From: Antennarius striatus | Lineage: Eukaryota > Chordata > Actinopteri > Lophiiformes > Antennariidae | Direction: 5' to 3' | Assembly: GCF_040054535.1 (NCBI RefSeq) | Contig: NC_090794.1 | Span: forward strand, 9,447,001-9,511,000 | DNA length: 64,000 bases | In this document: piece by piece, positions 16,614 through 19,600 of the stretch | Position numbering within the stretch: the first letter of the stretch is position 1 | How the letters are laid out: every line of letters begins with the position of its first letter | The notes under the pieces: generated by a model | The model's input: only the letters and a program-made list of their open reading frames with translations | Told to the model about the DNA's origin: nothing | The model's database searches: none | Program-made: the position numbers and the translations under genes

Positions 16614-19600
16614 ATGAGGCTTGTTTTTGTCCTTGTGGTTGCGGCTTTGTTGACAGGTAAGTGAAAGAGTGTTGAGTTGTTGCTCCTGCAGAGCACTGCA
16701 AGGAAGTCTGCCTATTTCAGAACCATGGACAGAGATATTGAATCGTACTGTGTTATGTTTGACTCTTTTTAACATGTTCCTTTTTTCAAATGCAGAAAAT
16801 CTAGCGCTTCCGGTAGGAAAACAAAGGCAGAAAGAAGATGTGGTATGTTTTTATTATTCAGTTTTACCTTTGAGGTTAAAACCTTAGCTGGAACTTACAT
16901 ACTTTTTTTTTTCTTCTTTAATTGTAGGTAACACGATGCTTGGTTGAGGTCCTGTCAAAAGCTCTCTCCAAACCAGACTCCCAACTGGATCAGGAATGCA
17001 AAGATATCCTGCAAGCAGGTCAGAAGCACAAACAGGTTTTCGATGTGTTTGTGTGTGTGTGTGTGTGTGTGTGTGTGTGTGTGTGTGTGTGTGTGTGTGT
17101 GTGTGTGTGTGTGTGTGTGTGTGTGTGTGTGTGTGTGTGTGTGTGTGTGTGTGTGTGTGTGTGTGTGTGTGAACATAGTAAGCAGTGAATGCTGTAGATG
17201 CGGCACTACTTAACTGTCGGATCAGAATATCTTGGCAACTGGCTGGTGATATAAATAGAGCCACTAAGGCTGTGTATAGTATTCAGGGCACTTTTTTTCA
17301 GATGAAAAACTAAAAATAATGAGATCCGTATCTTTCAATACATTGGAATACAACCACTTTTAATTATTTTGAAAAATCTAATACATGGTGGGGTTTCACT
17401 GAAATGCTAATGTCAAATAAGAAATCTTTCATAACTGTGGATCTATAAACCTGTTGATTTTCTTTCATTCTGTAATAGGAGTTAAACATGCCCCACTGGA
17501 CAAGAAGAATGCTGAGGTGATGACAGCTCATGAAGATGCGGTCAAAGGTCATCCTGATGACCCCGAAGCAAAGGGAGTAAACATGAAAGACATCGAAGCT
17601 CTCCTAAAATCTGTGGAGGAGAAGAGAGAAATCCCAGAAGACGAGCGCAGCCAAGAATCCTGGAGTGTGGGTGACGAAAAGGAGAAGAGAAATGAGGAGG
17701 GAGAGGAAGAAGAGCGAGAAAAGAGGAGAAGCTTTAGACCTAAATACCAACAACGGACACACAAACGAGGGGAAGAGGAAGATGAGCGCAGTCAGGAGAG
17801 TTGGGGGTTAGAAGACAAGAGATCAGAGGAGGAGGGAGAAGACAGAGAGAAGAGGAACTGGAGACCTGGAAGATACCACCAAAAAAAACACAAACGAGAT
17901 GAGGAACCTTTAGGAAGAGAGAGGGAGGAACCAGAGGAAGAACGTAGCCAGGAATACTGGGATGTAGACAAAAGGCATAGAAGCGAGGATGAGGAAGACA
18001 GATCCAAACGCCTGTGGCAGCCATGGCACGCCTATCTACACAAGAAAAAATTCCACAAACGTGGTGAGGAAGAAGATGGTGAGCGCAGTCAAGAGTATTG
18101 GGACTTTGATACAGGAAGAGACAAGAGGGACTGGAGGTCTGGCAGATATCACCAGAGGAGACACAAACGTGATGAAGAGCTCTCAGAGGATCTCAGGGAG
18201 GAACCTGATGAAGAGCGCAGCCAAGAATATTGGGACTTCGATACCGGCAGAGACAAGAGAGAATGGAGATCTGGAAGATATCACCAAAGGAGACACAAGC
18301 GCGATGAAGAAATCTCAGAGGATCCCAGGGACGAGCCTGATGAAGAGCGCAGCCAGGAATATTGGGATTTCAATACAGGAAGAGACAAGAGGGAATGGAG
18401 GTCTGGAAGATATCACCAGAGGAGGCACAAACGCGATGAAGAGCTCTCAGAAGATCCGAGGGAAGAGCCTGATGAAGAGCGCAGCCAGGAATATTGGGAT
18501 TTCGATACTGGAAGAGACAAGAGAGAATGGCGGCCCGGCAGGTATCATCAGAAGAAACACAAGCGCGATGAAGAGTTCTCAGAGGATCTCAGGGATGACC
18601 CTGATGAAGATCGCAGCCAGGAATATTGGGACTTCGACACAGGAACAGACAAGAGAGCATGGAGGCCTGGCAGGTACCACCAGAGGAAACACAAACGTGA
18701 TGAAGAGCTTGCAGATGAGAAGAGAGAAGAGGCTGATGAAGAACGCAGTCAGGAGTCCTGGGGCTTGGACAAAAGAAATGGAAACGAAGAGGAAGATGTA
18801 GAAAAGCGCTCATGGAAACCAACACGTAGATACCGCTACAAGACAAGGTTTCACAAGCGTGGTGGAGGCTCATCTGAAGAAGAGGAGGGGGATTCAGAGG
18901 AAGACCAAGAGGCTGCACCCAGCAGGGCTGAAGCTCTGAGGTATTTTAATCTTTGATCGTGTTTAACAACTCTTCAGATGTTTGCTTGCATTCTGCAGCC
19001 TGAAGCACACACAAAAAACATGGGGATGGAAACAGATTTCTGCAAAAGAAATGAGCAACCGCTCTAAGCATTGTTACTGTTATGGGATTGTTATTCAGGT
19101 ACCTGGCAGAGAAACGTAATCCCTGGGTTTTCAGAAGCTACTATCATCCTGCTTGGTTTAAAAGGGATCCGGACGAGTCCACAGGAAGCTCAAACAAGGT
19201 AGCATTATGCATAATAAGCATCATTTAAAAAATATAGTTGCAAACTGGTTTGTTGCTTTGTGTTACAGAAAGGGCATCAATCTAAACGTTATTTCACTTC
19301 ATGTCATGTATTTCATTTATTTTATATTCATGCATTTTAATCTCATTATCACTGACTGCTTCATTGTTTGTCTTTGTAATCTGGTTTTGACTTAAATGCG
19401 TCCAGATGGATGAACTGGCCAAGCTGCTGAGCAATAAGATGAACCAGTTGGTCAACCACCCCGATCAAGAGGAGGCAAAGAGAAGTGCACACCAGAAAGT
19501 ACTAAATGCACAGGAGGTAAAAACTTCTTTTACTTACTGTAAAAAATAAATAAATCATCCTTTATGGTTTATTTGTGTGTGCATGTGCGGTCAAACCCTC

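Follow-up and report, generated by a model that had tools for sequence, protein, structure and literature searches.

The window, a stretch of 64,000 nucleotides of Antennarius striatus genomic DNA, harbors a seven-exon gene at 16614-20514 on the forward strand, whose spliced frame encodes 644 residues beginning with a hydrophobic leader as judged by eye. GT-AG borders are present in all six introns, and a (TG)64 microsatellite occupies positions 17044-17171 within intron 3. Based on its disulfide loop, its C-terminus and its neighbours, the gene reads as chromogranin B (chgb). The loop in exon 3 scored 61 against the printed sequence of bovine CgA1-76 (PMC9452953, table), a value reached by none of 1000 shuffles. 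The CHGB-type C-terminus ELENLAAMDLELQKIA scored 108 against human CHGB (0/500 shuffles), and exons 1-3 and exons 6-7 also matched the human protein (each 0/500 shuffles). No match to it was found for exon 5 or the part of exon 4 preceding the array described below (87/500 and 79/500 shuffles). The human CHGB sequence used throughout is not a database record; the CGB length of 677 and the first and last codons given in the text and primers of PMC9526250 agree with it.

The Pfam Granin model PF01271 gave no match for exon 4 (E up to 1) or for the full protein (E up to 0.01) and was silent at chgb in a scan of the genome. This says little about the gene, because the chga exon of the same genome reached only 17.2 bits and thus also falls under the model cut-off of 25. 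A search of the PDB (E up to 1) gave no match. The flanking frames on the reverse strand contain TGF_beta with its propeptide (58329-59282), Kindlin_2_N (34076-34357) and Xan_ur_permease (1057-1482); we take these neighbours to be bmp2, kindlin (FERMT1) and an slc23-type permease (SLC23A type), whose human counterparts presumably share 20p with CHGB. A reverse transcriptase stretch (RVT_1, LINE-like by reading) lies at 36103-36786 (+).

Table 1. Exons of the chgb gene model and units of the array in exon 4 (positions within the window)
Feature	Positions	Strand	Remarks
chgb exon 1, start codon and hydrophobic leader	16614..16656	+	GT donor, MRLVFVLVVAALL
chgb exon 2	16796..16842	+	AG/GT borders, frame kept
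chgb exon 3, granin disulfide loop VTRCLVEVLSKALSK...QEC	16928..17018	+	loop score against bovine CgA
chgb exon 4, carries the nine-unit array	17479..18940	+	AG/GT borders, open frame
Unit 1 (diverged), ends RSFRPKYQQRTH-KR	17616..17768	+	basic peptide 17727-17762; weakest link is that to unit 7
Unit 2 (diverged), ends NWRPGRYHQKKH-KR	17769..17897	+	basic peptide 17856-17891
Unit 3 (diverged), ends LWQPWHAYLHKKKFH-KR	17898..18062	+	basic peptide 18012-18056
Unit 4, basic peptide DWRSGRYHQRRH at 18129-18164	18063..18170	+	
Unit 5, basic peptide EWRSGRYHQRRH at 18261-18296	18171..18302	+	
Unit 6, basic peptide EWRSGRYHQRRH at 18393-18428	18303..18434	+	
Unit 7, basic peptide EWRPGRYHQKKH at 18525-18560	18435..18566	+	
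Unit 8, basic peptide AWRPGRYHQRKH at 18657-18692	18567..18698	+	
Unit 9 (diverged), ends SWKPTRRYRYKTRFH-KR	18699..18860	+	basic peptide 18810-18854
chgb exon 5, KR-bounded NPWVFRSYYHPAWF at 19118-19159	19099..19198	+	
chgb exon 6, first residues MDELAKLLSNK	19406..19516	+	resembles printed CHGA peptide
chgb exon 7, C-terminus KELDNLAAMDMELQKIA and stop codon	20434..20514	+	splice model, match to human CHGB

The gene is distinct from CHGA and SCG2, as chga and two scg2-like genes sit at other places in the assembly. The chga locus, which scored 176 against printed bovine CgA, is located on the same contig near 10.96 Mb, about 1.5 Mb from chgb. The scg2 loci were named from a presumed secretoneurin pattern; two scg2 genes have likewise been reported in a cichlid (PMC4992253). 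At the exon 5/6 junction of chgb (19190-19440), NKMDELAKLLSN matches the printed zebra finch CHGA peptide WNKMDELAKQLTS (0/1000 shuffles). We take this stretch to be WE-14-like.

Exon 4 contains a tandem array. Tandem Repeats Finder reported a period of 132 at 18081-18754 with 5.1 copies, 85% matches, 0% indels and a score of 921. In agreement with the initial annotation, the translation shows five 132-bp units, each consisting of KR, a 12-residue basic peptide, KR and an acidic stretch with SQEYW. The length of about 28 residues proposed for the acidic stretch holds for four of the stretches preceding the regular 12-mers, whereas the first comprises only 20. Similarly, the count of five is correct for the regular units (4-8) but not for the whole array, which comprises nine units at 17616-18860: three diverged units precede the regular ones and another follows them. 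As the units were delimited by cutting exon 4 at HKR, the presence of HKR at every unit end is by construction. All nine units contain exactly one SQE[S/Y]W and end with a basic and aromatic peptide of 12 or 15 residues that includes His and is followed by KR. SQESW occurs in units 1, 2 and 9 and SQEYW in units 3-8; units 1, 2, 3 and 9, unlike units 4-8, have an additional KR that separates SQE.W from the basic peptide.

The diverged units 1, 2, 3 and 9 share 64-82% DNA identity with other units at aligned positions of gapped alignments. When these links were compared with codon-shuffled copies, 31 of the 32 ordered comparisons were reached by none of 200 shuffles, and that of unit 1 with unit 7 by three; the repeat search also ties the four units to the array. 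The 24 KR pairs of exon 4 are not attributable to chance, since 5000 residue shuffles averaged 6.6 and never exceeded 15; the full chgb protein contains 27. In the 548-Mb assembly, the array DNA matched a single place, as did the protein encoded by exon 4 (15 candidates scored at E up to 1); these counts are lower bounds. A duplicate of the gene resembling it in exon 4 was not detected in the assembly at E up to 1, a search that would miss paralogues whose exon 4 differs. About half of the synonymous sites differ among the regular units, and the array is therefore unlike an assembly artefact. A pattern search for relatives returned three matches in viral contigs and seven in genome contigs, none of which is a relative. 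The +1 frame, open over 277 codons (17968-18801), was rejected as a second coding frame, as 17% of 2000 synonymous-codon shuffles equalled it. An intron inside exon 4 was likewise unsupported: the signals picked up by a simple scan were limited to three weak donor-like sites, without any polypyrimidine acceptor. A CHGB isoform with a retained intron has been reported in a cichlid (PMC4992253).

Selection between units was analyzed for the five regular units, assuming a tree without gene conversion; units 1, 2, 3 and 9 were omitted because their lengths differ. The method of Nei and Gojobori gave a pS of 0.54, a dS of 0.95, a dN of 0.079 and an omega of 0.084 over the ten pairs, with segment values of 0.031 for the SQEYW block, 0.037 for the basic block with both KR and 0.325 for the linker. 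The minimum number of events was 29 synonymous and 19 replacement changes, where random placement expects 36.4 replacements among the 48. Codon-model likelihoods were calculated with our own code on the tree (r1,(r2,r3),(r4,r5)) and yielded an omega of 0.111 for the five units; a value of omega=1 was rejected (P ~5e-12). The segments had omegas of 0.051 (SQEYW block), 0.076 (KR-basic-KR) and 0.219 (acidic linker). Purifying selection on the basic core, which had been named as support for a function, was thus found among the regular units, and a neutral basic block was rejected (P 6e-10). The likelihood contrast between core and linker was significant (P 0.008), the linker itself was below 1 (P 2e-5), and the SQEYW and basic blocks did not differ (LRT 0.3). 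When event counts were compared among segments, Fisher tests were non-significant (core/linker P 0.07, basic/linker 0.11, basic/SQEYW 1.0); the overall constraint is therefore firmer than the difference from segment to segment.

The replacements that did occur were analyzed for their effect on charge. Only one of 11 linker replacements alters charge and ten keep it (61% altering expected, P 0.0006); over the whole unit the count is four of 19 (58% expected, P 0.001). In the basic block one of five replacements alters charge, which is non-significant (P 0.11), and charge conservation was not seen in the SQEYW block, where two of three do (P 0.83). The four KR codons show no replacement events, and synonymous changes occurred in three of them. 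In the W, G, Y, H, Q and H codons of the basic core, four synonymous changes and no replacements were counted, although the events are few and the codons were chosen post hoc. This conservation of uncharged core codons hints at a sequence-specific role. Tentatively, the sequences suggest two tiers of constraint, in which the linker is kept for charge and the core perhaps for sequence.

Mammalian CHGB (secretogranin-1) resembles the fish protein in its disulfide loop, the C-terminal LAAMDxELQKIA and the presence of KR sites. However, the expectation that human CHGB has no such regular array was borne out by the human sequence used, which has eight KR against 27 here and does not match the basic block (232/500 shuffles) or the SQEYW block (216/500 shuffles). 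Unit 2 as a whole (178/500 shuffles) and unit 5 (170/500 shuffles) also remained at shuffle level. A single QSEESWDEEDKRN in this human sequence matches the SQESW-KR piece DERSQESWGLEDKRS of unit 2 with a score of 45, where the shuffle maximum was 42 (0/500). As a lead that depends on this human sequence, the array may have expanded from a single ancient SxESW-KR piece, in which case its inner units would be the younger ones. The exon 5 peptide was rejected as the source of the array: its similarity to the nine units was at shuffle level (188 to 425 of 500 equalled it), and against the summed eight basic cores it is unsupported (P 0.18). The chga and scg2-like genes are likewise granins, and chga has the loop in common with chgb, but chga and the two scg2-like loci gave no Tandem Repeats Finder entry whose period exceeds 20 bp, a comparison that strongly diverged repeats would escape and in which chga was represented by exons other than its C-terminal ones.

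The reading we prefer, which we hold at slightly below an even chance, is that the array is a charge-block module of the granule matrix that aids packing when the pH is low, after which cleavage at KR would turn it into small peptides. In a simple pKa model, the basic peptides, of which eight are distinct among the nine units, have charges of +3.3 to +6.1 at pH 7.3 and the nine acidic stretches with SQE.W charges of -6 to -12. For the array as a whole (residues 106-522), the model gives a net charge of -21.5 at pH 7.3, -9.5 at pH 6.1 and -1.4 at pH 5.5. The module, assumed to be disordered, would thus consist of nine charge blocks that alternate between acidic and basic. With the drop in pH in the trans-Golgi, the His-containing basic blocks would gain charge, and the array would become less negative, its calculated net charge being about -10 instead of about -21. 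Acidic and basic blocks would then attract each other, so that CHGB condenses and brings cargo into granules, the array adding to the pH-dependent condensation of CHGB. In the maturing granule, prohormone convertases would probably cut at the KR pairs and a carboxypeptidase would trim the ends, yielding up to nine basic 12-15-mers together with acidic peptides. The SQE sites, which are present in all nine units and presumably fit the S-x-E phosphorylation motif, would be phosphorylated. Since the charge of the linker is kept, a granule-matrix role fits the selection results as well. A point against cleavage is that acidic residues follow many of the KR pairs, which may slow convertases.

Mammalian CGB has been shown to condense at pH 6.1 and not at pH 7.3, mostly via its disordered N-terminal domain (PMC9526250). 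CGB in which all acidic residues of its five acidic stretches were changed to Ala still formed droplets at pH 6.1 in the absence of calcium about as the wild type did and lost only its calcium response (PMC9526250). Acidic blocks are therefore not required for the condensation of mammalian CGB, a protein without the array. The same study credits protonation of acidic residues for condensation, and histidine is not mentioned in the text searched. A different role, that of anion-channel helices, has been proposed for CHGB (PMC6238609).

Several other explanations would account for parts of these data. If the protein were the precursor of a hormone or transmitter encoded in multiple copies, convertases would free the WR[P/S]GRYHQ[R/K][R/K]H peptide for a receptor and the acidic stretches would serve as spacers. 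Multi-copy neuropeptide precursors such as pro-TRH and proenkephalin carry near-identical copies with known processing and receptors. They share with the array the short repeated peptides, the dibasic sites, the acidic spacers and the secreted precursor, which here has a hydrophobic leader. Furthermore, all nine basic peptides are flanked by KR on both sides, the W, G, Y, H and Q residues of the core are invariant across the five regular units, and omega of the KR-basic-KR block is only about 0.08. However, the copies vary, with an identical basic peptide only in units 5 and 6 and strong divergence in units 1, 3 and 9. Internal dibasic pairs occur in eight of the nine basic peptides, and Gly precedes none of the 27 KR, which argues against amidation. 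The acidic SQEYW block is also as constrained as the basic one, which mere spacers would not need. We thus consider a hormone precursor rather unlikely. It is unlikely, too, that CHGB of this fish lineage represents a true multi-copy prohormone in which WR[P/S]GRYHQ[R/K][R/K]H and its SQEYW partner are two new selected secreted families; if it does, each precursor would give rise to as many as nine copies of both peptides, which would act extracellularly.

The composition of the basic peptides makes them candidates for binding small molecules or metals of the granule (ATP, catecholamines, zinc, copper) or for buffering granule ions. Every basic block combines Arg/Lys, His and aromatic residues, and zinc made mammalian CGB aggregate (PMC9526250), but we regard such a role as improbable. 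Still less probable is a function as secreted antimicrobial peptides. The peptides are short, cationic and aromatic, and antibacterial secretolytin derives from bovine CGB (PMC9452953); however, the secretolytin tail was not kept in the fish gene, where the alignment at 20434-20514 has only QKIA in common, and the acidic block is equally constrained. The exactly equal length of the core tandem units would also be expected of a minisatellite drifting in a disordered region, without unit-level function and with units alike through recent duplication or gene conversion. This explanation is the most doubtful and appears very improbable, as dS (~0.95) far exceeds dN (0.079), only 19 replacements accompany 29 synonymous events where 36.4 of 48 were expected, and omega=1 was rejected (P 5e-12). 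Recent homogenisation would have depressed dS as well.

The middle parts of granins are often regarded as loosely conserved, disordered filler. Here the middle is a regular repeat, whose units were kept by selection while about half of the synonymous sites changed. No such array was described in the titles and abstract openings among the matches listed from the open literature, with subscription journals and sequence databases lying outside this search. A survey of prohormones in clownfish describes granins as highly conserved among fish (PMC7067429). The zebrafish CHGB sequence is aligned in a figure of PMC6238609, and the array may therefore be visible in existing gene models. With the array it becomes testable whether charge blocks, cutting sites or specific peptides are what selection and the cell need in a granin.

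The array also predicts exact peptide masses for fish brain and pituitary. In zebrafish, the figure legend of a gut peptidome lists peptides of scg2a, scg2b, scg3 and scg5, and the main text does not name chgb (PMC12714231); in a top-down study of the brain, chgb is not named in the parts accessible (PMC13140148). An MS/MS study of the pituitary of the cichlid A. burtoni identified nine CHGB peptides (PMC4992253). Thus CHGB peptides occur in the fish pituitary, although some of the nine may be breakdown products.
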